Shown here in pieces: positions 1,971 to 54,844 of a stretch of DNA of 64,000 nucleotides (position 1 is its first letter; every line of letters starts with the position of its first letter). The stretch comes from Odontesthes bonariensis (Eukaryota; Chordata; Actinopteri; Atheriniformes; Atherinopsidae): contig NC_134507.1 in the NCBI RefSeq assembly GCF_027942865.1, positions 35,269,711 to 35,333,710 on the forward strand, given 5' to 3'. Position numbers and translations under genes: made by a program. The notes under the pieces were generated by a model. That model made no database searches, was not told the DNA's origin, and saw nothing but the letters and a program-made list of their open reading frames with translations.

Positions 1971-2015
1971 TATACCAACTAGCCTGATGCACTGCTCCCG
2001 CAGTGTCAAATTCTC

Positions 2016-9762: not shown

Positions 9763-9949
9763 ATCGCTTCTCGGCCTTTTGGCTAAGATCAAGTGTAGTA
9801 TCTGTTCTTATCAGTTTAATATCTGATACGTCCTCTATATGAGGACTACATATTAAATGGATTTTTAGGCACAGGGGTTGAAAAAGGGGCTTGCTCCGTT
9901 CACTCCACGCATCGACCCGGTACTGCAGTGCCGCCGGGAACGGTGCACT
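9763..9949 (+). ncRNA. U2 snRNA, the only uninterrupted copy in the window
   Basis: Complete U2 from ATCGCTTCTCGGCC to GGTGCACT, about 187 nt (human U2 is 188). It contains the branch-point recognition sequence GTAGTA (nt 33-38), the Sm site (GATTTTTAGG) and both 3' stem-loops. U2 pairs with the intron branch site in the spliceosome and with U6 in the catalytic core. The bases TCAAGTGTAGTA at 9789-9800 are exactly those missing in every LINE-occupied copy, so this gene is also the empty-site reference for the LINE. Upstream spacing to U5 and the promoter match the other units. Confidence 0.95.
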
Positions 9950-10183
9950 CTTCCCAACTCTTGTGAAATAACAAAACCAGCTGTACATGGTGGTAGTTTC
10001 AGGGAGCCATTGTATTCTGACTTCTAAAATGGAACTATAATCTTTAGAAAAGACGCAGTTTATGAGCACGTCGTGGGATTGAGCTTCCCTGGTTTCTCTG
10101 TATGACCATGAACACCAAACTACACACAGAGAACATGTATGGTTCCAGCACCTATGTAACACATATTTGTCACGAGGACTGTG

Positions 10184-19183: not shown

Positions 19184-22100
19184 CTGCGATCGCCACCTTT
19201 GGGTGGATGATTTTATGCATTTCAGCATTAAATTCTCACGCTTTGGAGGTTAATTTTGTGTTTGGTCAAATTATTCCAACTCTTTGTATTTGGTGTTCTT
19301 TATCAAAAAATGTTCCTGTATTACCCCCTTTTTTCAAGTTTTTACTTTTTTGAACTCGTCCAAGGAGTTTCAGCTGAAACAAGGTCGGTGTCCCGTTTTT
19401 TTAGGAGAGGAAGGTAAGTATCCCTTTTAGTACTTTTTTATCCAATTTTTACTCTTTTATTGGGTTTTTAGTGTGATATTTATTATTGTTCTTTTAAGCT
19501 TTTTGTTTAAAACTGTTTGTGGTGCCTCCATCATGTCGGCTAACTATGCTGGCATCAGGAGGCACCACAGCGCTAGATTTTTATTTAAAGAAAAGGAAGG
19601 AAAGCTTATAGAGATTTCCAGATTGGACTTCTCCCGGAAGCTAATCCAAAAAACATTGAACTTCAAGCCAGACGATTTGAATTGCATCCTGTAATTGCCT
19701 TTTAACAAGGAATTTGGTTTTCGCACTGCAGCTTTGCTGCAGGAGTTTTGGACGAGATTTGTAAATGTGCAAGCCCAGTTTTCTGCGTTTACTGACAATA
19801 CTCTGAAGACAGTAATTGTCAGAATGTTCAATGAAATGTTGAACGCAGAAGATATCTGTATATGGTTGGGAAGATTCTGCACTGTTAAAGGCCAAGCAAT
19901 GAAGGTGAGGGATGTCGATGGCATCTGGAACTGCGCCTGGAGGGTCCCCATCCAACAATGGCAAGACCCCCAGGGCTTCCAGGGCCTGAAACATCTCCCA
20001 TCAATGATTGTCTTGGGAGAAAACAGAGGCTACATCCACAACCAGGGACAGCCCAAACTCTGCTGCAAATATGGGGAGCACAGGCACCTGGTGTACTAAT
20101 GGCAGAAAGTGCAATCTCTGTGGAGAATTAAACCACCTCTTCAGAGATTGCCCAAAATCCTTTGCCAACAAATTGAAATCCAAAAAAACGCGGGAAGGAA
20201 ATGGAGGGCAGACAAGGCAGTTAACGAGCTACTTGAAACAGTAGCTGGAAAATTCAAACTTCCCGCCAAAACCTCTGAATGGTGGACAGCAGTCAGGTGA
20301 GGCCGAGGAGGGGGAGGGGCCTGCTACACCCCCACCAATGGAGAGCTCTGGAGAGGAGGAGGTGGTGCAGGCAGAAGGCGGAGCTAGTTCAGAATGTGAA
20401 GAAGTCCAATCACAGGATGATAGCGAGGATGCCTCCCTCCCAGATGCCCAGCAAACAAAGAGGCTTGCATCAGAATTGTCCACTGATTCTCCTATAGCAT
20501 ATAGTGTCAAACTCAAGGCCCGCGGGCCAAATGTGGCCTGCGAGAGCTTAAAAGGTCTGATTGTCTAAAAATAAAATCAAAATAAAGTCAAATACGTGCA
20601 GTGACCAAAAGCTACATTTCCACACAATGCATGCTGATTATGTTACGCGCGAACTGGACTGCAATGTTTCTAAATCGATGTGATTTTCCCAACAAGCTGA
20701 ATTGAGAAATACAAATAATGTTCCCAAAATGTCCAGGAAGAGAAATATTGATGCAGATGCCCTTCCATCTGCATCAATTTTTCTGTTTCAAGAAAGATTG
20801 GAAGGCAAATACATGTTTTTGCTTCAAGGAGAAGAAACGGTATGTCTTTTGTGTTGTGAGGCGGTGCCTGTTGTCAAAGAGTACGATCTACGTCCGCATT
20901 CTGAGACCAAACACGGAGCTCAGAGCCAACATTAGGCATCAAGAAAAACACCAAACTGCCAAAGAATTAAAAGGAAAACTGCAATCGCAGCAGAATGTGT
21001 TCGCTAAAACTGGAAACAATGCGGCAGTAAAAGCTAGCTTTGTTTGCTATTTCAAGTTTGGAACAAAGCAAATGTCATAACTTTTCTTTATTCACTTGGA
21101 TAGTTTGATCATTGACGGATGGAGTTGATGTGGGTTTCATCACCTGACAAATTAAAAGGATTTATGATATAATAACAGAACAACAAGCAAACATGTATTT
21201 TTTTTACATCTATGCAAATATATATGTAATATTTGTAACTTGAATAAGTAATAAATTCAGAGTTATTTAACATTTAGGAGTAGTTACATTTATAAGTTAC
21301 ATCTGGCCCTTTGAGGGCAACAATTATGCTGATGTGGCCCTCGGTGAAAATGAATTCGACACCCCTGTCCTATAGTCTCAGAGAAGAGGGGAAGAGCTGG
21401 GACTACCTCAGACAGTTCATCTGTGGAGGAGCCCAGAGTCTTCCCCTCCAATTCACCAAATGAGGTCTCTTTTTTAAATGTAGTTCTGCAATCAACCCCT
21501 AGAGACTCAAAGTTTAACAAAACCTTGCAACAGAGGCCAACCCCCAGAGTCCGACCGGGGAATAGAGCTCAACACCCTCGCCTCTCACCTGTAGAAGTGA
21601 AGGAAGAGCTCCGTTCACAAGAAATTACATAACTGCTTTTAAGACATTTTAAGATTTCAAGATTTTAACCTCTTAAATATTTATGGCTTTAACGAAAAAA
21701 ATGACCGGTATGACCTTTTAGAAGACCTGCAGTCCCACATGCTAGGTAGGGCACCACTAGTTTTAGGGGGTGATTTTAACTGTATTTTAAGCAGGAGTGA
21801 CAGAAAAAGAGCAGGGGAATTTTTTAACGTTGACAAAACATCGGTTTTATTACAGGGCATATGCAAGGATTTTAAACTTCAGGACTGTTTTAAAACCATG
21901 CATCCCAGAGAGGAGGGCTTCACCTGGTTCAGTGGTGATGGCACCAGAGCCTCTCGTATAGATTACCTTTTTACACGGGACTGCCCACCAACCGATGCTA
22001 GATTGACCCCCGTTTTCTTTTCTGATCACCTGATGCTTTCCTGCACCCTATCACTATCTTCGGGTGTGACTTCCGGAAGTGGTCTGTGGAAACTAAACTG

Positions 22101-28080: not shown

Positions 28081-28122
28081 GGCACCTGGAAAAGAGGTGT
28101 CAGCCTCTGACAATTCCAACTC

Positions 28123-33269: not shown

Positions 33270-33817
33270 ATTTGACTGTATAACGTAAATATCCCTGGGC
33301 AACTCTACCTTGGTTTTTGTCCTGGCGTTGCTGCTTTAACGACACCTCTCCATCTTTAAAACCCATGTTTTGCAAGGTTTGCTGAATGCTGCGGCAGGTC
33401 TGCACAGCTGATATGCAGCTGCGCTGTTGTCAGGTGAGGTCATACGGTGCAGTCACCCCAGGCAGGTGGGCGTTGCCTTAGTGATGGCAACAACGAGATG
33501 AGAATACGGCAGCATTTCTGCACTGGAGATATTAAGCCGTGAGGGTTTGCCTCAACTAAGAATTTTCCCAGTGTGGGTGGGTGTGGCTCTAGAGACGGGG
33601 AGAGTGGAAAAACTAAATCAATTTGTGCTCCAAGTTCCTTGGTTGTTGAAACAAGAACTGATCAGAAAGATGAAGAAAAGCCGGACTGTTTTAATCTGCA
33701 AGCTTTTCAGATTCAGTTTAGCTGCTGGCATGGCACTGCAGACAGTTGAATTTGCTGCACCGTCCGGCCGAGTGAGGCACCTGGAAAAGAGGTGTCAGCC
33801 TCTGACAGTTCCAACTC

Positions 33818-33981
33818 ATACTTACCTGGCAGGGGAGACACCATGATCAAGAAGGTGGTTCACCCAGGACGAGGCTCAGCCATTGCACACCGGCTGTACT
33901 GACCCTTGCGAATTCCCCAAATGTGGGAATCTCGACTGCATAATTTCTGGTAGTGGGGGACTGCATTCGCGCTCTCCCCTG
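33818..33981 (+). ncRNA. U1 snRNA, copy 10
   Basis: Two changes (GACACC and GCATTCGCG in the 3' stem-loop). The Sm site is intact. Confidence 0.92.
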
Positions 33982-34529
33982 ATTTGACTGTATAACGTAA
34001 ATATCCCTGGGCAACTCTACCTTGGTTTTTGTCCTGGTGTTGCTGCTTTAACGACACCTGTCCATCTTTAAAACCCATGTTTTGCAAGGTTTGCTGAATG
34101 CTGCGGCAGGTCTGCACAGCTGATATGCAGCTGCACAGTTGTCAGGTGAGGTCATACAGTGCAGTCACCCCAGGCAGGTGGGCGTTGCCTTAGTGATGGC
34201 AACAACGAGATGAGAATACGGCAGCATTTCTGCACTGGAGATATTAAGCCGTGAGGGTTTGCCTCAACTAAGAATTTTCCAAGTGTGGGTGGGTGTGGCT
34301 CTAGAGATGGGTAGAGTGGAAAAACTAAATCAATTTGTGCTCCAAGTTCCTTGGTTATTGAAACAAGAACTGATCAGAAAGATGAAGAAAAGCCGGACTG
34401 TTTTAATCTGCAAGCTTTTCAGATTCAGGTTAGCTGCTGGCATGGCACTGCAGACAGTTGAATTTGCTGCACCGTCCGGCCGAGTGAGGCACCTGGAAAA
34501 GAGGTGTCAGCCTCTGACAGTTCCAACTC

Positions 34530-34693
34530 ATACTTACCTGGCAGCGGAGATACCATGATCAAGAAGGTGGTTCACCCAGGACGAGGCTCAGCCATTGCAC
34601 ACCGGCTGTACTGACCCTTGCGAATTCCCCAAATGAGGGAATCTGGACTGCATAATTTCTGGTAGTGGGGGACTGCGTTCGCGCTCTCCCCTG
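34530..34693 (+). ncRNA. U1 snRNA, copy 11 (edge copy, divergent)
   Basis: Three changes not seen elsewhere: GGCAGCGGAG close to the 5' end, AAATGAGGG and AATCTGGACTG. As the terminal unit it is less exposed to homogenisation, and its downstream flank is cut at 34755. Confidence 0.88.
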
Positions 34694-34940
34694 ATTTGAC
34701 TGTATAACGTAAATATCCCTGGGCAACTCTACCTTGGTTTTTGTCCTGGCGTTGCAGTGAGCACTCTTCAGCCGTTTCAGATGGTACAACTTTGCACTCC
34801 CGCCCGCTCCACTGAGCACCATTCAAACAACAATTTAGCGCTCCAGCTTTGAACATGGGCACGGTCTCAACAAATAAGGTGACTCTACTCCGAGAAGTCA
34901 CTTGGCACAGCAAGAAGATTTCCTTTGCACAGACAGAATG

Positions 34941-35552: not shown

Positions 35553-38500
35553 TCAAAGGCACACCAGCAAGTTCCTGGAGGTCCACATGGCGTCTTTCAT
35601 AGTGGCTAGGGTGAGCCACTGCTTGGCAAAGTCATTCTTTTTTATTTTTGTTTGGCTCACCCCATAGAGCACGAGTTGTGCTGTGAGGACCTCCCTTGCT
35701 GGCAAGTACGGGAATTGCAAGGAGCCGGCTGTTGCCCACTGGTCTGCAGCAGCGCTGCACTCCCAGAGCAGGTGCCTCACCGACTCGGGCGCGCCACAAC
35801 CAGGTCGCGGGCAGGTTGAGATCGCTGACATGCCCCGGGAGTGCATAACGGACCTGACTGGCAGGATCTCATGAGCCACCATCCACGACAGGTCCCGGAG
35901 TCTGTTTGGGAGAGCGGAATGGTTGACGTTGCACCAAACTGTTGAGGGCTCGCCGAACGCGAGCCCACGCACTGGACTCACTGGTTCCCGCTCCTGCACA
36001 ACAGAAATCAAAGAGCGGTGGTTTGTTAAAACATGCAACTCCTCTGCCTCCAAGTTAAAATGCTTTAAGAACGTCTGGATAAAAGCATAGGATGGTGGCA
36101 GGCTAAAAGACACAGGCACTTTTAGGTCGGTGGGTAAAATCTTCAGTCTTCTGAGGTAAGAACCCATCCAGAATCGTGTCATTGCTTTAGTTTTGGGGTT
36201 TCCGGATGGGTCTGTGGCCTGTAGGATGTGCAGTGTAGTGTATCTGCTTCCTAAAAACAAATAAAAATCAGGCACTCCTTTTCCTCCTTTCTCTTTTTGT
36301 TTCTTCATTACATCTCTCCTCAGTCTTTCCCACTTGGAGCCCCACAGAAAATAAAAAATGGCTCGGTCCAGGTCTAAAAGTACTTTTCTAGGTGGGATAA
36401 AAACAGAACTGATTAGTAAAAGCAAAGGTAAAATCACGGCTTTGATGATTAAAACCTTTCCTTCAATGGTCAGTCCTCTAAGTCCCCAGTATCCTAGTCT
36501 TTGCTTTACTTTCCCTACCACGTCTGGCCAGTTTGATGTCCCTCCCCCTTCCTTGTCAAAATTAATCCCCAGTATTTTCTGTTTTGTCTGGGTTATAGTC
36601 ACGGGGAGTCCTGTTGTCTCAGTCGCTGTCCATGGCCCATAAAATTGGGCTTGGGTCTTGTTTCTGTTTAGTTTTGCCCCAGAGGCCCGTCCATACCAGT
36701 CGGTCAAGTCCAGAGTCCTGTTGATAGATAATAGGTCTGTACATAAAATGTTCACGTCGTCCATATATAAAACACACTTTGTCAATTGTCCCCCGCTCCC
36801 CGGGACTCTCACCCCATTGATTCGGTGGTCCCTTCTCAAGCTCTGTGCCAGTGGTTCCACACAGATGATGTAGAGGAGGGCAGATAACGGACAACCCTGA
36901 CGGACACCGCAGTGGATGTTTACTGCTTTTGTCAGATGCCCGTTAACAAGGAATTTGCTGGTAATGCCCCGGTACAGCAGACCCACCCAAGCTATAAACC
37001 TTTCTGGGAACCCCATTTTTGGCAGTACCTGGAAAAGGTACTGGTGCGAGACCCGATCAAAGGCTTTCTCAAAGTCTAAATTTAGGACTGCTAGCCGAAT
37101 GTTTCTGTCTCTCGCATAACAGATGGTGTCTCGGATCAGTACGAGGCTGTCGGTTATCTTCCTCCCCGGGATGGCACAGGCTTGATCCGGGTGAATCAGG
37201 TCTTCTAAAAACAAGGACATACGTGAGGCTAAAAGTTTACTAAAAAGTTTACAGTCAAAGTTTAAAAGTGTAATCGGTCTCCAATTCTTCAAGTCAGTCT
37301 TGTCTTTTTTTTTGTGAAGAAGAGTCACTATCCCTGCTCTAAAACTGTCAGGAAGTCGCTCAAGTTGCTCAAATTCCATAAAAACAGTAAACAAGTCAGG
37401 TGCTAAAAAGGGAAGTCCATCTTGTCCTGGGGACTTACCTTTCTTAAAATTTGTAAAACATTTATTTAACTCTGAAATGGTAAAATCTTGGGTTAAAAGC
37501 ACACTGTCTTTTACTGTTTTTTCTATGAAATTTAAAACTTCTGTCATGGTGTCAATTTCAACAGGTTTTTGTTCGTACAGTTCACGATAAAATTGTTCAA
37601 CAGCTTGTTTAATTTCTTCCATTGAATCAACTGTGCACCCGTTCTCTTTTCTTAGCTTTAAAATGGCCCCCCCTTTATTCACAATTTTCTTAAAAAAATA
37701 CCTTGTGCACTTCTCTCCTTCCTCTATTTCTCGTTCCCTGCTTCTTAAAATGACACCCTTACTTTTAATATCTGCTAAAACCGACATCTCTGTTTTCACT
37801 TGTTTAATTTCATCATTAAAATCCATCCCTTGTTGGTTTAATTTAAAATAGCGTTGTAGTCGCTTCTGCAGTCCCATCATGCGTCTGTTTTCCCTATTCT
37901 TTTTTCTCCTACCTGCCTGTCTAAAGAAAATCTGGGTCTTTTCCTTCACCATTTCCCACCAGTGTGCACGTGTATCGTAAAAGTCTTGAAGGGTCTGCCA
38001 CTCGTGGTACTGCTCCCGGTACTGACTAACTATTTCATCTTCTTTTAAAAGGGAGCAGTTTAGTTTCCACAGACCACTTCCGGAAGTCACACCCGAAGAG
38101 AGTGATAGGGTGCAGGAAAGCATTAGGTTATCGGAAAAGAAAACGGGGGTCAATCTAGCATCGGTTGGTGGGCAGTCCCGTGTAAAAAGGTAGTCTATAC
38201 GAGAGGCTCTGGTGCCATCACCACTGAACCAGGTGAAGCCCTCCTCTCTGGGATGCATGGTTTTAAAACAGTCCTGAAGTTTAAAATCCTTGCAAATGCC
38301 CTGTAATAAAACCGATGTTTTGTCAACTTTAAAAAATTCCCCAGCTCTTTTTCTGTCACTCCTGCTTAAAATACAGTTAAAATCACCCCCTAAAACTAGT
38401 GGTGCCCTACCTAGCATGTGGGACTGCAGGTCTTCTGAAAGGTCATACCGGTCATTTTTTTCGTTAAAGCCATAAATATTTAAGAGGTTAAAATCTTGTC

Positions 38501-39863
38501 CCATAAAAGTCAAATGTGCTAAAAGTGCCCGTCCGTCTCTCACCACAGTGCTGCCCTTCACCAGAACCTGAGGGTTTTTGATCAAAATGGCCACTCCGTC
38601 ATTTTTGTTTTGGTTGGATCCACTCCACAATGATGTCTGTGGCCACATCTCCTCCCACTGTCTGTAGTGCTTTAAAAACGGTAGGCCGCATTCCTGTATT
38701 AAAAGAACATTTAAAAAAGAGACCTCATTTGGTGAATTGGAGGGGAAGACTCTGGGCTCCTCCACAGATGAACTGTCTGAGGTAGTCCCAGCTCTTCCCC
38801 TCTTCTCTGAGACTATAGGAGAATCAGAGGACAATTCTGATGCAAGCCTCTTTGTTTGCTGGGCATCTGGGAGGGAGGCATCCTCGCTATCATCCTGTGA
38901 TTGGACTTCTTCACATTCTGAACTAGCTCCGCCTTCTGCCTGCATCACCTCCTCCTCTCCAGAACTCTCCATTGGTGGGGGTGTAGCAGGCCCCTCCCCC
39001 TCCTCGGCCTCACCTGACTGCTGTCCACCATTCAGGGATTTTGGCGGGAAGTTTGAATTTTCCAGCCCAGCTGTTTCAAGTAGCTCGTTAACTGCCTCGG
39101 TCTGCCCTCCATTTCCTTCCCGCGTTTTTTTGGATTTCAATTTGTTGGCAAAGGATTTTGGGCAATCTCTGAAGAGGTGGTTTGATTCTCCACAGAGATT
39201 GCACTTTCTGCCATTCGTACACTCTTCGAAGGTGTGACCGATTCCTCTACATTTGCCACAAAACACCTTCGTGCAGGCCTCCACCAGGTGCCCGTGCTCC
39301 CCACATTTGCGGCAGAGTTTGGGCTGTCCCTGGTAGTGGATGTAGCCTCTGTTTTCTCCCAAGACAATCATGGATGGGAGATGTTTCAGGCCCTGGAAGC
39401 CCTGGGGGTCTTGCCATTGTTGGATGGGGACCCTCCAGGCGCAGTTCCAGATGCCGTCAACATCCCTCACCTTCATTGCCTGGCCTTTAACAGTGCAGAA
39501 TCTTCCCAACCATATACAGATATCTTCTGCGTTCACCATTTCATTGAACATTCTGACAATTACTGTCTTCAGAGTATTGTCAGTAAGTTTCTCAACAGTA
39601 AACGCAGAAAACTGGGCTTGTACATTTTCAAATCTTGTCCAAAACTCCTGCAGCAAAGCTGCAGTGCGAAAACTTACATCGAAACCTTTGTTAAAAGGCA
39701 ATGACAGGATGCAATTCAAATCGTCTGGCTTGAAGTTCAATATATTTTGAATTAGCTTTCGAGAGAAGTCCAATCTGGACATCTCTATGAGCTTTCCTTC
39801 TTTTTCTTTAAACAAAAATCTAGCGCTGTGGTGCCTCCTCATGCCAGCATAGTTTGCCGACAT
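35553..39863 (-). CDS. Fused LINE ORF1-ORF2 frame (1436 codons)
   Basis: A single open frame made by a 328-bp deletion relative to the copy at 41917-47538. ORF1 codons up to NEVSFLNV continue into ORF2 at LLIQECG (junction at 38707-38710, 4-bp microhomology ACAT). It keeps the three ORF1 CCHC knuckles, most of the endonuclease (QECG, GGDFN, SRIDYLF), the RT with YMDD, and the C-terminal CCHC. It lacks the first ~43 ORF2 residues including the INVRS asparagine, has SDN instead of SDH, and a 27-bp deletion at ~37409 removes 9 residues before the RT core. The end is foreign (LLVCL), where the LINE was cut at 35562. It is very unlikely to work as an enzyme, but it would encode one long polyprotein. 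Confidence 0.85.
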
Positions 39864-40219
39864 GATGGAGGCACCACAAACAGTTTTTAAATAAAATGCT
39901 TAAAAGAACAATAATAAATATCTCACTAAAACCCAATAAAAGAGTAAAAAGTGGATAAAAGGGTACTAAAAAGGGATACTTACCTTCCTCCAAAAAAAAA
40001 AAAAAAAAAACGGAACAACGACACCGACCCTGTTTCAGCTGAAACTCGTTCAAAAAGCAAAAACCTGAAAAAAAGGGGGTAATAAAGGAAAATTTGACAA
40101 AGAACTGCAACTACAAAAGAGTTGGAATACTTTGACCACGCACAAAAAAGAACCTCCAAAGCGTGAGAATTTAATGCCGAAAAGGCATAAAATAGTCCAC
40201 CCAAAGGAGACGATCGCAG
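35563..40219 (-). mobile_element. Keno-type LINE (copy F), internally deleted, 3' end missing
   Basis: It runs from the intact 5' end next to U2 nt 26 (40219/40220) through a 5' UTR with an A-run and splice-like signals to ORF2 near its C terminus. The 3' UTR and tail are gone. Confidence 0.9.
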
Positions 40220-40245
40220 TCTTAGCCAAAAGGCCGAGAAGCGAT
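40220..40245 (-). pseudogene. U2 snRNA 5' end (nt 1-26)
   Basis: Intact first 26 nucleotides with the normal U2 upstream region (40246 onward) and LINE copy F directly attached. The 3' part of this gene has been deleted. Confidence 0.93.
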
Positions 40246-40543
40246 AACCCTCCACTGTTTCACGTCCGAGCGCCCTTCCTGGCACAATGCGCACTTGTGG
40301 CGGTGCTCTTTTTTTGCCTACAAAGCGTCACTTTGCACCTCCGCCCACCCGCTGCAGTGAGCACTCTTCAGCCGTTTCAGATGGTACAACTTTGCACTCC
40401 CGCCCGCTCCACTGAGCACCATTCAAACAACAACACTTTAGCGCTCCAGCTTTGAACATGGGCACGGTCTCAAGAAATAAGGTGACTCTACTCCGAGAAG
40501 TCACTTGGCACAGCAAGAAGATTTCCTTTGCACAGACAGAATG

Positions 40544-40662
40544 GGCTTCACCCGCAAAGGTAAAGCCTTCCAAAAATAGAAACAACTCATTAATGTTGCT
40601 CTCCACGGAAGTCTTTAGTAAAAGGCGAAAGACTTGTACGTTATGAAGAGAAACCAGAGTAC
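40544..40662 (-). ncRNA. U5 snRNA
   Basis: Complete copy. The terminal stem-loop is the GCGGGTGAAGCC form of the first unit, and the pre-Sm region has the AACATTAATGAG variant. The PSE-like element is in place upstream. Confidence 0.93.
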
Positions 40663-40969
40663 GAGTATTTGACACTGCGGGAGCAGCGCATCAGGCTAGT
40701 TGGCATAGCCACCTTCCCCACGGTGAGCTTTGCTTGGTTGAGACGCTGGCTCCTCGGCCGACCAGGTAGGAACAATCGGGCCCTATTCAATGGCTGCTTT
40801 GTCTTTTACTCTGTGCAAAAGACTAGGGGTCTTGAGGCTTTGTTCTGACCGCTCATTGGGTGTAGAGGTTTTTTTCAAGCAATTCTCCCAGTCGGCCCAA
40901 TCCCAGAGCCATCTCAAAGTGGAGTTCACTTTCGCTCTCTTTTTTCGCAGACTAAAAAGCCAGAGTTTT

Positions 40970-41048
40970 ATCTCAGAAGCTAAGCAGAGTCGGGCCTGGT
41001 TAGTATTTGGATGGGGAGACCGCCTGGGAATACCAGGTGCTGTAAGCC
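40970..41048 (+). pseudogene. Inverted, 5'-truncated 5S rRNA fragment
   Basis: 5S nt 43 to end on the plus strand, with the extra-G C box and TTTT after the end. It carries a TATTTGG change shared with the next unit. Confidence 0.88.
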
Positions 41049-41274
41049 TTTTGGCTTCTCCAGGCGCATGCAGTTTGACTGCGTCAAATGCAAAGGCAGT
41101 CCCTGTTTGACGTTTTGGAACTGCTCCTTTGTCAGGACAAAGTTAAATGTATGAGGATCAAAGGCAACCGTGACCTGGGACACCTTAGCAGATCCAGGAT
41201 CAGCAAGATGGATCACAGGGTGATCAACAGATGTTTCAACAAAAGACATGCAGAGAGAAGAGAAGAGAGAAAAA

Positions 41275-41393
41275 TGCTTACAGCACCTGGTATTCCCAAG
41301 CGGTCTCCCATCCAAGTACTACCCAGTCCCGACCCAGCTTGGCTTCCGAGTTCGTACGAGATCGGGCGTGTTCAGGGCGGTGTGGCCGTAAGC
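41275..41393 (-). rRNA. 5S ribosomal RNA, divergent copy
   Basis: 119 nt with normal ends, but with a cluster of changes in the control region: AGCCAAGCTGGGTCGGGACTGGGTAGTACTT-type sequence where other copies have CAGGGTCGGGCCTGGTTAG. A further change, CGTACGAACTCG for CGTCCGAACTCG, is shared with the copy at 48593. Three extra substitutions inside the A-box/intermediate region suggest a 5S pseudogene or a variant class. Confidence 0.8.
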
Positions 41394-41767
41394 CACAGTC
41401 CCCGTGACAAATATGTGTTACATAGGTGCTGGAACCATACGTTTCCCCTATTTCACCAGAGAGTTGGCTTGAGAGGCTGATGTAGAGCCTGCACGTCGAC
41501 TTCCCTGATGTGATTGTTCTCTGCAGCTGAAAATGGGACTCTCAGATAACTTAGTGTGTGTCTGTCAAGCTCCTCTTTTCTCTGTGTGTAGTTTGGTGTT
41601 CATGGTCATACAGAGAAACCAGGGAAGCTCAATCCCACGACGTGCTCATAAACTGCGTCTTTTCTAAAGATTATAGTTCCATTTTAGAAGTCAGAATACT
41701 CCCTCAATGGCTCCCTGAAACTACCACCATGTACCGCTGGTTTTGTTATTTCACAAGAGTTGGGAAG

Positions 41768-41916
41768 AGTGCACCATTCCCGGCGGCACTGCAGTACCGG
41801 GTCGATGCGTGGAGTGAACGGAGCAAGCCCCTTTTTCAACCCCTGTGCCTAAAAATCCATTTAATATGTAGTCCTCATATAGAGGACGTATCAGATATTA
41901 AACTGATAAGAACAGA
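41768..41916 (-). pseudogene. U2 snRNA 3' part (nt 39-187)
   Basis: Standard boundaries. One change near the 3' end (GGAATGGTGCA for GGAACGGTGCA) is shared with the copy at 49086. Confidence 0.92.
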
Positions 41917-42295
41917 TTTTTGTTTTGAAAAAATTTATTGACACTAATACATCCTATTTTCACAAAAACTTCATATTTAAGACATATGTTTTACCTATGA
42001 ATAAAAACATCAATAAATAAGTGTAATCTGTATAACCACATTTAAAACAACAACAATAAAACAAGTTTTCCATGGGATATTACAGATAAAGTCAATGTCG
42101 TCTAATGTAAAAGCTACATGTGAAGTAGTTCTCATGCGAGTAGCAGTTTGTATTGAGTGTCTTTAAAAAGGAGTGCATTAGTTAAAATGCTCTCTTCCAA
42201 GTACATTTTTTGTGCAGGAGCGCAGTGAGTCCCTACCCAGGGAAACTCATTTCGCTCCCCCAAACAGTAGGTCTCTCGGGATCCTCTCGTGGTGC

Positions 42296-45200
42296 TCAGA
42301 GGAGATCCCCACCCTGTTGCTCCTTCTCACCTGCCTCACCCGGAGAGCCGGGCCGTCGCTGCTTTGACCTTTTTGTGTGTAGCTCCGGCTCCTTCATCCG
42401 AATGGGCACAGAGGCGATTCTTCTTTGTGGATGTGTCCTAGGCCCACCGCCTGCAGCTCCGGCCGCTTGAGCCGCTGCTGCGGCCATCCGGATCACAGCC
42501 ACGGGGGGGATCTGCATGCGCTTCCTCACCAGCAAGTTCCTGGAGGTCCACATGGCGTCTTTGATGGCGGCTAGGGTGAGCCACTGCTTGGCAAAGTCAT
42601 TCTTTTTTATTTTTGTTTGGCTCACCCCATAGAGCACGAGTTGTGCTGTGAGGACCTCCCTTGCTGGCAAGTACGGGAATTGCAAGGAGCCGGCTGTTGC
42701 CCACTGGTCTGCAGCAGCGCTGCACTCCCAGAGCAGGTGCCTCACCGACTCGGGCGCGCCACAACCAGGTCGCGGGCAGGTTGAGATCGCTGACATGCCC
42801 CGGGAGTGCATAACGGACCTGACTGGCAGGATCTCATGAGCCACCATCCACGACAGGTCCCGAAGTCTGTTTGGGAGAGCGGAATGGCTGACGTTGCACC
42901 AAACTGTTGAGGGCTCGCCGAACGCGAGCCCACGCACCGGACTCACTGGTTCCCGCTCCTGCACAACAGAAATCAAAGAGCGGTGGTTTGTTAAAACATG
43001 CAACTCCTCTGCCTCCAAGTTAAAATGCTTTAAGAACGTCTGGATAAAAGCATAGGATGGTGGCAGGCTAAAAGACACAGGCACTTTTAGGTCGGTGGGT
43101 AAAATCTTCAGTCTTCTGAGGTAAGAACCCATCCAGAATCGTGTCATTGCTTTAGTTTTGGGGTTTCCGGATGGGTCTGTGGCCTGTAGGATGTGCAGTG
43201 TAGTGTATCTGCTTCCTAAAAACAAATAAAAATCAGGCACTCCTTTTCCTCCTTTCTCTTTTTGTTTCTTCATTACATCTCTCCTCAGTCTTTCCCACTT
43301 GGAGCCCCACAGAAAATAAAAAATGGCTCGGTCCAGGTCTAAAAGCACTTTTCTAGGTGGGATAAAAACAGAACTGATTAGTAAAAGCAAAGGTAAAATC
43401 ACGGCTTTGATGATTAAAACCTTTCCTTCAATGGTCAGTCCTCTAAGTCCCCAGTATCCTAGTCTTTGCTTTACTTTCCCTACCACGTCTGGCCAGTTTG
43501 ATGTCCCTCCCCCTTCCTTGTCAAAATTAATCCCCAGTATTTTCTGTTTTGTCTGGGTTATAGTCACGGGGAGTCCTGCAGTCTCAGTCGCTGTCCATGG
43601 CCCGTAAAATTGGGCTTGGGTCTTGTTTCTGTTTAGTTTTGCCCCAGAGGCCCGTCCATACCAGTCGGTCAAGTCCAGAGTCCTATTGATAGATAATAGG
43701 TCTGTACATAAAATGTTCACGTCGTCCATATATAAAACACACTTTGTCGATTGTCCCCCGCTCCCCGGGACTCTCACCCCATTGATTCGGTGGTCCCTTC
43801 TCAAGCTCTGTGCCAGTGGTTCCACACAGATGATGTAGAGGAGGGCAGATAACGGACAACCCTGACGGACACCGCAGTGGATGTTTACTGCTTTTGTCAG
43901 ATGCCCGTTAACAAGGAATTTGCTGGTAATGCCCCGGTACAGCAGACCCACCCAAGCTATAAACCTTTCTGGGAACCCCATTTTTTGCAGTACCTGGAAA
44001 AGGTACTGGTGCGAGACCCGATCAAAGGCTTTCTCAAAGTCTAAATTTAGGACTGCTAGCCGAATGTTTCTGTCTCTCGCATAACAGATGGTGTCTCGGA
44101 TCAGTACGAGGCTGTCGGTTATCTTCCTCCCCGGGATGGCACAGGCTTGATCCGGGTGAATCAGGTCTTCTAAAAACAAGGACATACGTGAGGCTAAAAG
44201 TTTACTAAAAAGTTTACAGTCAAAGTTTAAAAGTGTAATCGGTCTCCAATTCTTCAAGTCAGTCTTGTCTTTTTTTTTGTGAAGAAGAGTCACTATCCCT
44301 GCTCTAAAACTGTCAGGAAGTCGCTCAAGTTGCTCAAATTCCATAAAAACAGTAAACAAGTCAGGTGCTAAAATATCCCAAAAGGTCAAATAAAATTCCA
44401 AGGGAAGTCCATCTTGTCCTGGGGACTTACCTTTCTTAAAATTTGTAAAACATTTATTTAACTCTGAAATGGTAAAATCTTGGGTTAAAAGCACACTGTC
44501 TTTTACTGTTTTTTCTATGAAATTTAAAACTTCTGTCATGGTGTCAATTTCAACAGGTTTTTGTTCGTACAGTTCACGATAAAATTGTTCAACAGCTTGT
44601 TTAATTTCTTCCATTGAATCAACTGTGCACCCGTTCTCTTTTCTTAGCTTTAAAATGGCCCCCCCTTTATTCACAATTTTCTTAAAAAAATACCTTGTGC
44701 ACTTCTCTCCTTCCTCTATTTCTCGTTCCCTGCTTCTTAAAATGACACCCTTACTTTTAATATCTGCTAAAACCGACATCTCTGTTTTCACTTGTTTAAT
44801 TTCATCATTAAAATCCATCCCTTGTTGGTTTAATTTAAAATAGCGCTGTAGTCGCTTCTGCAGTCCCATCATGCGTCTGTTTTCCCTATTCTTTTTTCTC
44901 CTACCTGCCTGTCTAAAGAAAGTCTGGGTCTTTTCCTTCACCATTTTCCACCAGTGTGCACGTGTATCGTAAAAGTCTTGAAGGGTCTGCCACTCGTGGT
45001 ACTGCTCCCGGTACTGACTAACTATTTCATCTTCTTTTAAAAGGGAGCAGTTTAGTTTCCACAGACCACTTCCGGAAGTCACACCCGAAGAGAGTGATAG
45101 GGTGCAGGAAAGCATTAGGTTATCGGAAAAGAAAACGGGGGTCAATCTAGCATCGGTTGGTGGGCAGTCCCGTGTAAAAAGGTAGTCTATACGAGAGGCT

Positions 45201-45826
45201 CTGGTGCCATCACCACTGAACCAGGTGAAGCCCTCCTCTCTGGGATGCATGGTTTTAAAACAGTCCTGAAGTTTAAAATCCTTGCATATGCCCTGTAATA
45301 AAACCGATGTTTTGTCAACTTTAAAAAATTCCCCTGCTCTTTTTCTGTCACTCCTGCTTAAAATACAGTTAAAATCACCCCCTAAAACTAGTGGTGCCCT
45401 ACCTAGCATGTGGGACTGCAGGTCTTCTAAAAGGTCATACCGGTCATTTTTTTCGTTAAAGCCATAAATATTTAAGAGGTTAAAATCTTGTCCCATAAAA
45501 GTCAAATGTGCTAAAAGTGCCCGTCCGTCTCTCACCACAGTGCTGCCCTTCACCAGAACCTGAGGGTTTTTGATTAAAATGGCCACTCCATCATTTTTGT
45601 TTTGGTTGGATCCACTCCACAATGATGTCTGTGGCCACATCTCCTCCCACTGTCTGTAGTGCTTTAAAAACGGTAGGCCGCATTCCTGTATTAAAAGAAC
45701 ATCTGACTTAAAAGAACTAAGAAAGGATAAAACACTCTGGGCTCTAACTTTCGACTTTACACTTCTCACATTAATAGTTGAGAGAGTGAGTGTCATGAGT
45801 ATGGTTAAAAACAACAGGTATGACAT
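42296..45826 (-). CDS. LINE ORF2: endonuclease-reverse transcriptase (copy G)
   Basis: 1176 residues. The N-terminal APE-type endonuclease (about 15-245) shows INV (N19), QE (E48), IYGFN (Y121, N124), GGDFN (D151, N153) and SRIDYLF (D214). The final motif is SDN (D235, N236) where SDH is expected. The reverse transcriptase follows with [21 protein letters not shown] (Asp596), [12 protein letters not shown] and the catalytic YMDD (699-702). A CCHC motif CPRPGC...HLLWEC lies around 1020-1040, then a basic Ala/Gly-rich tail. The protein would nick the U2 gene and prime reverse transcription at the nick. The His-to-Asn change probably disables nicking; the equivalent His is needed in human L1. 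Start chosen at the first Met after the ORF1 stop. Confidence 0.92.
45119..45121 (-). other. Endonuclease His-to-Asn codon (ORF2 residue 236)
   Basis: AAC here, CAC in copies B (4890-4892) and E (22027-22029). The same AAC is present in copies F (38127-38129) and H (52438-52440). Confidence 0.85.
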
Positions 45827-45875
45827 CTTAAAAGACTAAATGAGGGTTAAAACATTTCAAATGTCTTAAAAGCAG

Positions 45876-47183
45876 TTATGTAATTTCTTGTGAATGGAGC
45901 TCTTCCTTCACTTCTACAGGTGAGAGGCGAGGGTGTTGAGCTCTATTCCCCGGTCGGACTCTGGGGGTTGGCCTCTGTTGCAAGGTTTTGTCAAACTTTG
46001 AGTCTCTAGGGGTTGATTGCAGAACTACATTTAAAAAAGAGACCTCATTTGGTGAATTGGAGGGGAAGACTCTGGGCTCCCCCACAGATGAACTGTCTGA
46101 GGTAGTCCCAGCTCTTCCCCTCTTCTCTGAGACTATAGGAGAATCAGAGGACAATTCTGATGCAAGCCTCTTTGTTTGCTGGGCATCTGGGAGGGAGGCA
46201 TCCTCGCTATCATCCTGTGATTGGACTTCTTCACATTCTGAACTAGCTCCGCCTTCTGCCTGCATCACCTCCTCCTCTCCAGAACTCTCCATTGGTGGGG
46301 GTGTAGCAGGCCCCTCCCCCTCCTCGGCCTCACCTGACTGCTGTCCACCATTCAGGGATTTTGGCGGGAAGTTTGAATTTTCCAGCCCAGCTGTTTCAAG
46401 TAGCTCGTTAACTGCCTCGGTCTGCCCTCCATTTCCTTCCCGCGTTTTTTTGGATTTCAATTTGTTGGCAAAGGATTTTGGGCAATCTCTGAAGAGGTGG
46501 TTTGATTCTCCACAGAGATTGCACTTTCTGCCATTCGTACACTCTTCGAAGGTGTGACCGATTCCTCTACATTTGCCACAAAACACCTTCGTGCAGGCCT
46601 CCACCAGGTGCCCGTGCTCCCCACACTTGCGGCAGAGTTTGGGCTGTCCCTGGTAGTGGATGTAGCCTCTGTTTTCTCCCAAGACAATCATGGATGGGAG
46701 ATGTTTCAGGCCCTGGAAGCCCTGGGGGTCTTGCCATTGTTGGATGGGGACCCTCCAGGCGCAGTTCCAGATGCAGTCAACATCCCTCACCTTCATTGCC
46801 TGGCCTTTAACAGTGCAGAATCTTCCCAACCATATACAGATATCTTCTGCGTTCACCATTTCATTGAACATTCTGACAATTACTGTCTTCAGAGTATTGT
46901 CAGTAAGTTTCTCAACAGTAAACGCAGAAAACTGGGCTTGTACATTTTCAAATCTTGTCCAAAACTCCTGCAGCAAAGCTGCAGTGCGAAAACTTACATC
47001 GAAACCTTTGTTAAAAGGCAATGACAGGATGCAATTCAAATCGTCTGGCTTGAAGTTCAATATATTTTGAATTAGCTTCCGAGAGAAGTCCAATCTGGAC
47101 ATCTCTATGAGCTTTCCTTCTTTTTCTTTAAACAAAAATCTAGCGCTGTGGTGCCTCCTCATGCCAGCATAGTTTGCCGACAT
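45876..47183 (-). CDS. LINE ORF1: CCHC zinc-knuckle RNA-binding protein (copy G)
   Basis: 435 residues. The N-terminal ~160 residues carry no named motif but contain a conserved block ([20 protein letters not shown]). Three CCHC knuckles follow: C184/C187/H192/C197, C202/C205/H210/C215 and C221/C224/H229/C234. After them comes an acidic, Ser/Glu-rich region and a basic Pro/Arg tail. ORF1 of Tx1-clade LINEs binds the element RNA in the ribonucleoprotein. It differs from sister copies at residue 137 (Cys for Gly). The 49-bp gap to ORF2 suggests reinitiation or another cap-independent route for ORF2. Confidence 0.92.
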
Positions 47184-47538
47184 GATGGAGGCACCACAAA
47201 CAGTTTTTAAATAAAATGCTTAAAAGAACAATAATAAATATCTCACTAAAACCCAATAAAAGAGTAAAAAGTGGATAAAAGGGTACTAAAAAGGGATACT
47301 TACCTTCCTCCAAAAAAAAAAAAAAAAAACGGAACAACGACACCGACCCTGTTTCAGCTGAAACTCGTTCAAAAAGCAAAAACCTGAAAAAAAGGGGGTA
47401 ATAAAGGAAAATTTGACAAAGAACTGCAACTACAAAAGAGTTGGAATACTTTGACCACGCACAAAAAAGAACCTCCAAAGCGTGAGAATTTAATGCCGAA
47501 AAGGCATAAAATAGTCCACCCAAAGGAGACGATCGCAG

Positions 47539-47564
47539 TCTTAGCCAAAAGGCCGAGAAGCGAT
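47539..47564 (-). pseudogene. U2 snRNA 5' end (nt 1-26)
   Basis: Pairs with 41768-41916 across LINE copy G; nt 27-38 are missing. Confidence 0.94.
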
Positions 47565-47862
47565 AACCCTCCACTGTTTCACGTCCGAGCGCCCTTCCTG
47601 GCACAATGCGCACTTGTGGCGGTGCTCTTTTTTTGCCTACAAAGCGTCACTTTGCACCTCCGCCCACCCGCTGCAGTGAGCACTCTTCAGCCGTTTCAGA
47701 TGGTACAACTTTGCACTCCCGCCCGCTCCACTGAGCACCATTCAAACAACAACACTTTAGCGCTCCAGCTTTGAACATGGGCACGGTCTCAACAAATAAG
47801 GTGACTCTACTCCGAGAAGTCACTTGGCACAGCAAGAAGATTTCCTTTGCACAGACAGAATG

Positions 47863-47981
47863 GGCTTCACCCGCAAAGGTAAAGCCTTCCAAAAATAGAA
47901 ACAACTCATTAATGTTGCTCTCCACGGAAGTCTTTAGTAAAAGGCGAAAGACTTGTACGTTATGAAGAGAAACCAGAGTAC
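47863..47981 (-). ncRNA. U5 snRNA
   Basis: Complete copy, identical in visible features to 40544-40662, from which it is one 7319-bp unit away. Confidence 0.93.
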
Positions 47982-48287
47982 GAGTATTTGACACTGCGGG
48001 AGCAGTGCATCAGGCTAGTTGGCATAGCCACCTTCCCCACGGTGAGCTTTGCTTGGTTGAGACGCTGGCTCCTCGGCCGACCAGGTAGGAACAATCGGGC
48101 CCTATTCAATGGCTGCTTTGTCTTTTACTCTGTGCAAAAGACTAGGGGTCTTGAGGCTTTGTTCTGACCGCTCATTGGGTGTAGAGGTTTTTTTCAAGCA
48201 ATTCTCCCAGTCGGCCCAATCCCAGAGCCATCTCAAAGTGGAGTTCACTTTCGCTCTCTTTTTTCGCAGACTAAAAGCCAGAGTTTT

Positions 48288-48366
48288 ATCTCAGAAGCTA
48301 AGCAGAGTCGGGCCTGGTTAGTATTTGGATGGGGAGACCGCCTGGGAATACCAGGTGCTGTAAGCC
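48288..48366 (+). pseudogene. Inverted, 5'-truncated 5S rRNA fragment
   Basis: As in the neighbouring unit (TATTTGG variant, extra-G C box), 226 bp from and facing the 5S gene at 48593. Confidence 0.88.
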
Positions 48367-48592
48367 TTTTGGCTTCTCCAGGCGCATGCAGTTTGACTGC
48401 GTCAAATGCAAAGGCAGTCCCTGTTTGACGTTTTGGAACTGCTCCTTTGTCAGGACAAAGTTAAATGTATGAGGATCAAAGGCAACAATGACCTGGGACA
48501 TCTTAGCAGATCCAGGATCAGCAAGATGGATCACAGGGTGATCAACAGATGTTTCAACAAAAGACATGCAGAGAGAAGAGAAGAGAGAAAAA

Positions 48593-48711
48593 TGCTTACA
48601 GCACCTGGTATTCCCAAGCGGTCTCCCATCCAAGTACTAACCAGGCCCGACCCTGCTTGGCTTCCGAGTTCGTACGAGATCGGGCGTGTTCAGGGCGGTG
48701 TGGCCGTAAGC
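48593..48711 (-). rRNA. 5S ribosomal RNA
   Basis: 119 nt with normal A box (AGCCAAGCAGGGTCG) and C box, and a T-run after the 3' end. One change (CGTACGAACTCG) is shared with the divergent copy at 41275. Likely functional. Confidence 0.93.
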
Positions 48712-49085
48712 CACAGTCCCCGTGACAAATATGTGTTACATAGGTGCTGGAACCATACGTTTCCCCTATTTTACCAGAGAGTTGGCTTGAGAGGCTGATG
48801 TTGAGCCTGCACGTCGACTTCCCTGATGTGATTGTTCTCTGCAGCTGAAAATGGGACTCTCAGATAACTTAGTGTGTGTCTGTCAAGCTCCTCTTTTCTC
48901 TGTGTGTAGTTTGGTGTTCATGGTCATACAGAGAAACCAGGGAAGCTCAATCCCACGACGTGCTCATAAACTGCGTCTTTTCTAAAGATTATAGTTCCAT
49001 TTTAGAAGTCAGAATACTCCCTCAATGGCTCCCTGAAACTACCACCATGTACCGCTGGTTTTGTTATTTCACAAGAGTTGGGAAG

Positions 49086-49234
49086 AGTGCACCATTCCCG
49101 GCGGCACTGCAGTACCGGGTCGATGCGTGGAGTGAACGGAGCAAGCCCCTTTTTCAACCCCTGTGCCTAAAAATCCATTTAATATGTAGTCCTCATATAG
49201 AGGACGTATCAGATATTAAACTGATAAGAACAGA
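49086..49234 (-). pseudogene. U2 snRNA 3' part (nt 39-187)
   Basis: Standard boundaries, attached to the tail of LINE copy H; carries the same GGAATGG change as 41768-41916. Confidence 0.92.
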
Positions 49235-52200
49235 TTTTTGTTTTGAAAAAATTTATTGACACTAATACATCCTATTTTCACAAAAACTTCATATTTAAGA
49301 CATTTGTTTAACCTATGAATAAAAACATCAATAAATAAGTGTAATCTGTATAACCACATTTAAAACAACAACAATAAAACAAGTTTTTCATGGGATATTA
49401 CAGATAAAGTCAATGTCGTCTAATGTAAAAGCTACATGTGAAGTAGTTCTCATGCGAGTAGCAGTTTGTATTGAGTGTCTTTAAAAAGGAGTGCATTAGT
49501 TAAAATGCTCTCTTCCAAGTACATTTTTTGTGCAGGAGCGCAGTGAGTCCCTACCCAGGGAAACTCATTTCGCTCCCCCAAACAGTAGGTCTCTCGGGAT
49601 CCTCTCGTGGTGCTCAGAGGAGATCCCCACCCTGTTGCTCCTTCCCACCTGCCTCACCCGGAGAGCCAGGCCGTCGCTGCTTTGACCTTTTTGTGTGTAG
49701 CTCCGGCTCCTTCATCCGAATGGGCACAGAGGCGATTCTTCTTTGTGGATGTGTCCTAGGCCCACCGCCTGCAGCTCCGGCCGCTTGAGCCGCTGCTGCG
49801 GCCATCCGGATCACAGCCACGGGGGGGATCTGCATGCGCTTCCTCACCAGCAAGTTCCTGGAGGTCCACATGGCGTCTTTGATGGCGGCTAGGGTGAGCC
49901 ACTGCTTGGCAAAGTCATTCTTTTTTATTTTTGTTTGGCTCACCCCATAGAGCACGAGTTGTGCTGTGAGGACCTCCCTTGCTGGCAAGTACGGGAATTG
50001 CAAGGAGCCGGCTGTTGCCCACTGGTCTGCAGCAGCGCTGCACTCCCAGAGCAGGTGCCTCACCGACTCGGGCGCGCCACAACCAGGTCGCGGGCAGGTT
50101 GAGATCGCTGACATGCCCCGGGAGTGCATAACGGACCTGACTGGCAGGATCTCATGAGCCACCATCCACGACAGGTCCCGAAGTCTGTTTGGGAGAGCGG
50201 AATGGTTGACGTTGCACCAAACTGTTGAGGGCTCGCCGAACGCGAGCCCACGCACCGGACTCACTGGTTCCCGCTCCTGCACAACAGAAATCAAAGAGCG
50301 GTGGTTTGTTAAAACATGCAACTCCTCTGCCTCCAAGTTAAAATGCTTTAAGAACGTCTGGATAAAAGCATAGGATGGTGGCAGGCTAAAAGACACAGGC
50401 ACTTTTAGGTCGGTGGGTAAAATCTTCAGTCTTCTGAGGTAAGAACCCATCCAGAATCGTGTCATTGCTTTAGTTTTGGGGTTTCCGGATGGGTCTGTGT
50501 TCTGTAGGATGTGCAGTGTAGTGTATCTGCTTCCTAAAAACAAATAAAAATCAGGCACTCCTTTTCCTCCTTTCTCTTTTTGTTTCTTCATTACATCTCT
50601 CCTCAGTCTTTCCCACTTGGAGCCCCACAGAAAATAAAAAATGGCTCGGTCCAGGTCTAAAAGCACTTTTCTAGGTGGGATAAAAACAGAACTGATTAGT
50701 AAAAGCAAAGGTAAAATCACGGCTTTGATGATTAAAACCTTTCCTTCAATGGTCAGTCCTCTAAGTCCCCAGTATCCTAGTCTTTGCTTTACTTTCCCTA
50801 CCACGTCTGGCCAGTTTGATGTCCCTCCCCCTTCCTTGTCAAAATTAATCCCCAGTATTTTCTGTTTTGTCTGGGTTATAGTCACGGGGAGTCCTGCAGT
50901 CTCAGTCGCTGTCCATGGCCCGTAAAATTGGGCTTGGGTCTTGTTTCTGTTTAGTTTTGCCCCAGAGGCCCGTCCATACCAGTCAGTCAAGTCCAGAGTC
51001 CTATTGATGGATATTAGGTCTGTACATAAAATGTTCACGTCGTCCATATATAAAACACACTTTGTCGATAGTCCCCCGCTCCCCGGGACTCTCACCCCAT
51101 TGATTCGGTGGTCCCTTCTCAAGCTCTGTGCCAGTGGTTCCACACAGATGATGTAGAGGAGGGCAGATAACGGACAACCCTGACGGACACCGCAGTGGAT
51201 GTTTACTGCTTTTGTCAGATGCCCGTTAACAAGGAATTTGCTGGTAATGCCCCGGTACAGCAGACCCACCCAAGCTATAAACCTTTCTGGGAACCCCATT
51301 TTTTGCAGTACCTGGAAAAGGTACTGGTGCGAGACCCGATCAAAGGCTTTCTCAAAGTCTAAATTTAGGACTGCTAGCCGAATGTTTCTGTCTCTCGCAT
51401 AACAGATGGTGTCTCGGATCAGTACGAGGCTGTCGGTTATCTTCCTCCCCGGGATGGCACAGGCTTGATCCGGGTGAATCAGGTCTTCTAAAAACAAGGA
51501 CATACGTGAGGCTAAAAGTTTACTAAAAAGTTTACAGTCAAAGTTTAAAAGTGTAATCGGTCTCCAATTCTTCAAGTCAGTCTTGTCTTTTTTTTTGTGA
51601 AGAAGAGTCACTATCCCTGCTCTAAAACTGTCAGGAAGTCGCTCAAGTTGCTCAAATTCCATAAAAACAGTAAACAAGTCAGGTGCTAAAATATCCCAAA
51701 AGGTCAAATAAAATTCCAAGGGAAGTCCATCTTGTCCTGGGGACTTCCCTTTCTTAAAATTTGTAAAACATTTATTTAACTCTGAAATTGTAAAATCTTG
51801 GGTTAAAAGCACACTGTCTTTTACTGTTTTTTTCTATGAAATTTAAAACTTCTGTCATGGTGTCCATTTCAACAGATTTTTGTTCGTACAGTTCACGATA
51901 AAATTGTTCAACAGCTTGTTTAATTTCTTCCATTGAATCAACTGTGCACCCGTTCTCTTTTCTTAGCTTTAAAATGGCCCCCCCTTTATTCACAATTTTC
52001 TTAAAAAAATACCTTGTGCACTTCTCTCCTTCCTCTATTTCTCGTTCCCTGCTTCTTAAAATGACACCCTTACTTTTAATATCTGCTAAAATCGACATCT
52101 CTGTTTTCACTTGTTTAATTTCATCATTAAAATCCATCCCTTGTTGGTTTAATTTAAAATAGCGCTGTAGTCGCTTCTGCAGTCCCATCATGCGTCTGTT

Positions 52201-54844
52201 TTTCCTATTCTTTTTTCTCCTACCTGCCTGTCTAAAGAAAGTCTGGGTCTTTTCCTTCACCATTTCCCACCAGTGTGCACGTGTATCGTAAAAGTCTTGA
52301 AGGGTCTGCCACTCGTGGTACTGCTCCCGGTACTGACTAACTATTTCATCTTCTTTTAAAAGGGAGCAGTTTAGTTTCCACAGACCACTTCCGGAAGTCA
52401 CACCCGAAGAGAGTGATAGGGTGCAGGAAAGCATTAGGTTATCGGAAAAGAAAACGGGGGTCAATCTAGCATCGGTTGGTGGGCAGTCCCGTGTAAAAAG
52501 GTAGTCTATACGAGAGGCTCTGGTGCCATCACCACTGAACCAGGTGAAGCCCTCCTCTCTGGGATGCATGGTTTTAAAACAGTCCTGAAGTTTAAAATCC
52601 TTGCATATGCCCTGTAATAAAACCGATGTTTTGTCAACTTTAAAAAATTCCCCTGCTCTTTTTCTGTCACTCCTGCTTAAAATACAGTTAAAATCACCCC
52701 CTAAAACTAGTGGTGCCCTACCTAGCATGTGGGACTGCAGGTCTTCTAAAAGGTCATACCGGTCATTTTTTTCGTTAAAGCCATAAATATTTAAGAGGTT
52801 AAAATCTTGTCCCATAAAAGTCAAATGTGCTAAAAGTGCCCGTCCGTCTCTCACCACAGTGCTGCCCTTCACCAGAACCTGAGGGTTTTTGATCAAAATG
52901 GCTACTCCATCATTTTTGTTTTGGTTGGATCCACTCCACAATGATGTCTGTGGCCACATCTCCTCCCACTGTCTGTAGTGCTTTAAAAACGGTAGGCCGC
53001 ATTCCTGTATTAAAAGAACATCTGACTTAAAAGAACTAAGAAAGGATAGAACACTCTGGGCTCTAACTTTCGACTTTACACTTCTCACATTAATAGTTGA
53101 GAGAGTGAGTGTCATGAGTATGGTTAAAAACAACAGGTATGACATCTTAAAAGACTAAATGAGGGTTAAAACATTTCAAATGTCTTAAAAGCAGTTATGT
53201 AATTTCTTGTGAATGGAGCTCTTCCTTCACTTCTACAGGTGAGAGGCGAGGGTGTTGAGCTCTATTCCCCGGTCGGACTCTGGGGGTTGGCCTCTGTTGC
53301 AAGGTTTTGTTAAACTTTGAGTCTCTAGGGGTTGATTGCAGAACTACATTTAAAAAAGAGACCTCATTTGGTGAATTGGAGGGGAAGACTCTGGGCTCCT
53401 CCACAGATGAACTGTCTGAGGTAGTCCCAGCTCTTCCCCTCTTCTCTGAGACTATAGGAGAATCAGAGGACAATTCTGATGCAAGCCTCTTTGTTTGCTG
53501 GGCATCTGGGAGGGAGGCATCCTCGCTATCATCCTGTGATTGGACTTCTTCACATTCTGAACTAGCTCCGCCTTCTGCCTGCATCACCTCCTCCTCTCCA
53601 GAACTCTCCATTGGTGGGGGTGTAGCAGGCCCCTCCCCCTCCTCGGCCTCACCTGACTGCTGTCCACCATTCAGGGATTTTGGCGGGAAGTTTGAATTTT
53701 CCAGCCCAGCTGTTTCAAGTAGCTCGTTAACTGCCTCGGTCTGCCCTCCATTTCCTTCTCGCGTTTTTTTGGATTTCAATTTGTTGGCAAAGGATTTTGG
53801 GCAATCTCTGAAGAGGTGGTTTGATTCTCCACAGAGATTGCACTTTCTGCCATTCGTACACTCTTCGAAGGTGTGACCGATTCCTCTACATTTGCCACAA
53901 AACACCTTCGTGCAGGCCTCCACCAGGTGCCCGTGCTCCCCACACTTGCGGCAGAGTTTGGGCTGTCCCTGGTAGTGGATGTAGCCTCTGTTTTCTCCCA
54001 ATACAATCATGGATGGGAGATGTTTCAGGCCCTGGAAGCCCTGGGGGTCTTGCCATTGTTGGATGGGGACCCTCCAGGCGCAGTTCCAGATGCCATCGAC
54101 ATCCCTCACCTTCATTGCCTGGCCTTTAACAGTGCAGAATCTTCCCAACCATATACAGATATCTTCTGCGTTCACCATTTCATTGAACATTCTGACAATT
54201 CTTCAGAGTATTGTCAGTAAGTTTCTCAACAGTAAACGCAGAAAACTGGGCTTGCACATTACCAAATCTCATCCAAAACTCCTGCAGCAAAGCTGCAGTG
54301 CGAAAACTTACATCGAAACCTTTGTTAAAAGGCAATGACAGGATGCAATTCAAATCGTCTGGCTTGAAGTTCAATATGTTTTGAATTAGCTTCCGAGAGA
54401 AGTCCAATCTGGACATCTCTATAAGCTTTCCTTCTTTTTCTTTAAATAAAAATCTAGCGCTGTGGTGCCTCCTCATGCCAGCATAGTTTGCCGACATGAT
54501 GGAGGCACCACAAACAGTTTTTAAATAAAATGCTTAAAAGAACAATAATAAATATCACACTAAAAGCCAATAAAAGAGTAAGAAGTGGATAAAAAGGTAC
54601 TAAAAAGGGATACTTACCTTCCTCTAAAAAACGGAACACCGACACTGACCCTTTTTCAGCTGAAACTCGTTCAAAAACCAAAAAACTGGGAAAAAAAAGG
54701 GTAATACAGGAAAATTTAAATGCAAAGAACTCCAAATACAAACGACTTGGAATACTTTGATCGAACGCAAAAAGGAACCTCCAAAGCGAGAAAATTTAAT
54801 GCCAAAAAAGCATAAAATAGTCCACCCAAAGGAGGCGATCGCAG
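49235..54844 (-). mobile_element. Keno-type LINE in U2 (copy H), full length, two frameshifts
   Basis: Near twin of copy G. ORF1 starts at 54497 and is shifted by a 5-bp deletion near 54200. ORF2 starts at 53145 and is shifted by an extra T in the T-run at about 51827-51833; the remainder (51812-49614) has all RT motifs and the C-terminal CCHC. The endonuclease has Asn at the histidine site. It reaches U2 nt 26 at 54845. Confidence 0.92.

Follow-up and report, generated by a model that had tools for sequence, protein, structure and literature searches.

Probable multiplication with the host gene unit of three U2-inserted LINE copies carrying asparagine at the endonuclease catalytic histidine in Odontesthes bonariensis

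Introduction

The U2 3' site is described in PMC4640811 as a target of both Keno and Utopia. Keno, found in animals including fish, is a non-LTR retrotransposon of the APE type that inserts in U2; Utopia shares the target and has a restriction-like endonuclease instead. The R1 and R2 elements of Drosophila rDNA are likewise LINEs that insert at specific sites in tandem RNA genes, where retrotransposition and host recombination compete. Most 5'-truncated R1 and R2 copies of an individual animal are described as not duplicated by recombination (PMC2718515).

Endonucleases of the APE type depend on a histidine in an SDH motif. The H309N form of APE1 is described as inactive with substrate binding kept (PMC5335514), and mutation of H230 in human L1 as eliminating activity, with this residue mutated at 0 of 134 intact human L1 loci (PMC4837594). 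Those laboratory mutants were engineered; the locus described here carries a natural change at the same residue, identical in kind to H309N. Among the papers listed by a literature search for natural H230N, none dealt with LINE endonucleases.

The window, C2:35269711-35333710 of the 945-Mb Odontesthes bonariensis genome, is the whole stretch of 64,000 nucleotides that was analyzed. It holds U1, U2, U5 and 5S genes together with U2-inserted LINEs, three consecutive copies of which (F, G and H) have asparagine in place of the catalytic histidine.

Results

Insertion site and element anatomy

The LINE starts directly after U2 nucleotide 26, and U2 sequence resumes 3' of it at nucleotide 38, or at 39 if the final A is counted with the tail. 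A repeated unit of about 7.3 kb is made of a U2 stub, the LINE, the U2 3' part, 5S and U5. A Pfam scan finds an APE-type endonuclease (PF03372), a reverse transcriptase (PF00078) and zf-RVT in ORF2, ZCCHC3-like domains with CCHC knuckles in ORF1, and no restriction-like endonuclease domain, which separates it from Utopia. The insertion site, with its U2 3' flank, and the APE-type endonuclease joined to a reverse transcriptase fit Keno, from which three local copies differ in having Asn for the catalytic His. The principal features, in window coordinates, are as follows.

9763..9953, plus strand: uninterrupted U2 gene, the empty insertion site, as read from sequence
35562..40219, minus strand: LINE copy F, without its 3' end and with an internal deletion
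41918..47538, minus strand: LINE copy G, full length; probable hybrid of an F-type 5' part and an H-type 3' part
42296..45826, minus strand: ORF2 of G, 1176 aa, endonuclease/reverse transcriptase/zf-RVT
45876..47183, minus strand: ORF1 of G, 435 aa, ZCCHC3-like domains and CCHC knuckles
49236..54844, minus strand: LINE copy H, with ORF1 and ORF2 frameshifted
40246..41917, minus strand: G-F spacer with the U2 3' part, 5S (41275-41393) and U5 (40550-40662)
47565..49235, minus strand: H-G spacer with the U2 3' part, 5S (48593-48711) and U5 (47869-47981); sister of the G-F spacer

Copy G is intact by ORF length, as the earlier note had held, with both frames open. In copy F, ORF1 residues 1-388 are fused in frame to ORF2 residues 42-1100 (1436 aa), so that ORF2 residues 1-41 and everything after 1100 are missing.

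The surroundings are rich in related arrays and rearrangements. Eleven U1 genes stand in tandem at 27355-34755, with a unit of about 712 bases, beside the U2, 5S and U5 arrays. The U2 5' end has 367 matches genome-wide; among the first 100 listed (C2:32.27-34.18 Mb), many lie in long arrays with a regular spacing of 1695 or 1705 bases, too short for the LINE to fit. At 18395-20497 a minus-strand LINE 3' fragment adjoins a plus-strand U2 3' part, 75 bases beyond which a second U2 stub starts copy E, which matches the other copies at only about 88% in its 5' region; a comparably close LINE-U2-LINE order occurs at L007. A different LINE lies at 58406-62347 on the plus strand, where a GDSL-lipase ORF is followed by a 1011-aa endonuclease-reverse transcriptase ORF.

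Asparagine at the catalytic histidine

The earlier note had read Asn in F, G and H and His in B and E at the expected catalytic position, and codon readout confirms this.

38127..38129, minus strand: Asn codon AAC, copy F, as read from sequence
45119..45121, minus strand: Asn codon AAC, copy G, ORF2 residue 236, as read from sequence
52438..52440, minus strand: Asn codon AAC, copy H, as read from sequence
4890..4892, plus strand: His codon CAC, copy B, as read from sequence
22027..22029, plus strand: His codon CAC, copy E, as read from sequence

That the position is the catalytic one is borne out by alignment with the full-length human L1 ORF2p chains 9k6g and 8uw3 (E ~2.5e-16), in which residue 236 falls on the SDH His. 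Nine other active-site positions, in L1 residue numbering, are invariant wherever present among 31 copies: 31/31 at seven positions, 30/30 at one and 29/29 at another, these last two being deleted, one in E and one in E and F. Copies F, G and H depart from an active APE-type endonuclease at the catalytic His of SDH and keep its other active-site residues, apart from the one position deleted in F. By analogy with the engineered mutants, we infer that Asn at residue 236 would block nicking by this element. The change is relevant to mobility in G alone, because F and H are broken in other ways.

Genome-wide distribution of the Asn form

A genome scan with a 34-base pattern, which left the first codon base open and tolerated as many as three mismatches, gave 78 sites, a count of those copies that keep the 34-base stretch within that divergence. 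Three have AAC, exactly the consecutive copies F, G and H, and 75 have CAC. All but two of the sites (76) lie in C2:32.26-40.05 Mb, with one more at C2:45.34 Mb and one on C16. If three Asn copies were placed at random among 78 copies in line, a consecutive run would arise with p ~0.001. Asn copies at unlinked U2 sites, which would have spoken for continued retrotransposition of the Asn form, were looked for among the 78 sites and none was found. At least 41 protein matches were obtained, and in at least 17 of them ORF2 is open from residue 1 to 1175 or 1176; among the open-ORF2 matches listed, only G has Asn, against His in the remaining 16.

The earlier note had also pointed to silent changes linked to the Asn codon. 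The same bases (CGAT...CTA) occur in 13 His copies, so that they fail as a marker of an Asn lineage.

Alleles shared by F, G and H

At first 27, and later 31, copies were projected onto the 9.1-kb unit of G. Among the 31, the Asn base is the only base common to exactly F, G and H. The F+G pair ranks at the top of 465 pairs with 15 private alleles, eight in the LINE and seven upstream, and G+H has 8, five of them in the LINE; the flank alleles of both pairs come from a single comparison, that of the H-G spacer with the G-F spacer. Across the genome, the F+G allele at 4809 stands at 2 of 75 sites, and the 3' junction of G and H occurs in its exact form at 2 places. Two further candidates were rejected: G at 4595, considered as a second allele specific to the trio, is present at 10 of 79 sites, and G at 6300, considered as exclusive to G and H, at 5 of 71.

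The spacer evidence became weaker on wider comparison. The seven upstream F+G alleles had been judged private on only 9-10 copies; among 21 spacers, compared in both registers, they are reduced to three (343, 565 and 985), of which 343 is found too in a short flank of L033. Allele 808 is found too in the fragment beyond F. In distance, the G-F and H-G spacers come 36th among 136 pairs (0.67% vs a median of 1.02%), and a 96-letter spacer pattern occurs at one place, the other spacer being off by a 1-base indel. The G-F and H-G spacers form a clade in the tree of 21 spacers (support 96).

Allele sharing is also seen elsewhere in the family. L011 and L019, oppositely oriented and separated by 1.7 Mb, have 8 private alleles in common, so allele sharing does not need adjacency; most of these alleles lie in the downstream spacer (support 100), which suggests a long-range exchange or duplication. 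L016, L020 and L023 are unlinked internal LINE fragments; their ends nearly coincide and they share an insert near unit position 5600, which suggests another duplicated block.

Trees, divergence and the crossover interval

The earlier note had proposed that LINE and spacer trees be compared, and both tie G to its neighbors. Copies F and G group with a support of 100 in the LINE tree of 1700-5600, F, G and H with 99 in that of 2460-4680, and G and H with 99 in that of 5600-7315. The AU test rejects monophyly of F, G and H over 1700-2459 (p=0.011), a stretch in which H carries a different 5' end, and over 5600-6711 it does not (p=0.17). Within G, the shared alleles change from those of F to those of H, which suggests a crossover between unit positions 5571 and 6300, an interval that rests on few sites.

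42938..43667, minus strand: switch from F-sharing to H-sharing in G, the suggested crossover interval; few sites, AU not significant

The putative duplicated block differs at 33 of 6964 positions (0.47%), and G and H outside it at 55 of 3881. Median divergence between compared copies is 0.55-1.58% in LINE coding segments, 5.25% at the 5' end and 0.97-1.09% in spacers. Near the Asn codon (3412-4600), G-H ranks 14th, F-G 53rd and F-H 110th of 350 pairs, so other pairs lie closer there in raw distance.

Copies A and B also lie about 7.3 kb apart and are the 4th closest of the 350 pairs in 3412-4600, and they form no clade in the LINE trees; the idea that all 7.3-kb neighbors are recent duplicates was thereby ruled out.

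The rest of the family

Across 27 copies, the pN/pS of ORF2 variants is 0.20 for those in at least four copies, 0.39 for those in two or three and 0.52 for singletons; in the endonuclease alone, variants in two or three copies give 0.66 (n=3 variants). These sequence comparisons show purifying selection on family-wide ORF2 variants. The length of the A-tail varies between copies and, together with the pN/pS values, indicates that the family spread mainly by retrotransposition with working proteins. The trio of F, G and H is a local exception in it.

Discussion

Local DNA-level amplification of F, G and H is, on the sequence comparisons, well supported, and most likely they multiplied by duplication of the host unit through unequal exchange. 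His236 would have changed to Asn once, within a single lineage of a U2-inserting, Keno-like LINE, and Asn would then have multiplied locally as misaligned 7.3-kb units exchanged. G may have arisen in the latest exchange, with its 5' part coming from an F-type unit and its 3' part from an H-type one. Copies F and H would both have carried Asn before that event, which calls for an exchange or conversion at an earlier time as well. We infer this order of events, like the crossover point and the choice of exchange over conversion, from the pattern of shared alleles.

The mosaic nature of the copies would also suit gene conversion, in which independent LINEs in neighboring U2 units swapped tracts and Asn was carried along without duplication of the unit. 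The other 5' end of H agrees with it, as do three bases of F near 5634-5659 that are common only to L016, L020 and L023. Long tracts would be needed, however, since the F+G and G+H alleles run from the LINE into the spacer, and the 3' junction common to G and H asks for long tracts again; conversion of this kind is unlikely. Separate retrotransposition of the Asn element, through residual activity of its own or help in trans, has the history of the family behind it: the family retrotransposed under selection (the pN/pS of 0.20), most of those compared have A-tail lengths of their own, and the 16 or more His copies with open ORF2 could supply the missing function. Against this stand the lack of Asn at the 75 other sites, which span 7.8 Mb and more, the one unusual tail common to G and H, and the sister relationship of the spacers on either side of G, which lie outside the element, and we regard such a history as distinctly improbable. 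Tandem repeats of 7.3 kb are difficult to assemble, which might call up false copying of one unit in the assembly; F, G and H are mutually different and differ in their lesions, leaving an artefact with next to no probability.

Duplication of the host unit by unequal exchange, then, accounts best for F, G and H. The earlier note was right in its observation, and its argument from linked silent changes was wrong; its conclusion, that copies spread by exchange of the unit rather than by retrotransposition, is well supported for F, G and H and stops there, the family itself having spread mainly by retrotransposition. Unlike most 5'-truncated R1 and R2 copies in a Drosophila animal, three copies here were apparently duplicated by recombination. 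It is a very long shot that the protein of G, the only Asn copy whose ORFs are open, could bind the U2 site and reverse transcribe without cutting, and that G, multiplied along with its host unit, might act as a dominant inhibitor and shield U2 genes from His copies.

The surprise is modest, since arrays of this kind are expected to undergo unequal exchange and to gather inactivating mutations. The locus nevertheless allows spread by host recombination to be told from retrotransposition base by base, a standing question for elements of the R1/R2 type, and indicates that a LINE probably unable to nick still gained copies by riding in a tandem host gene unit.
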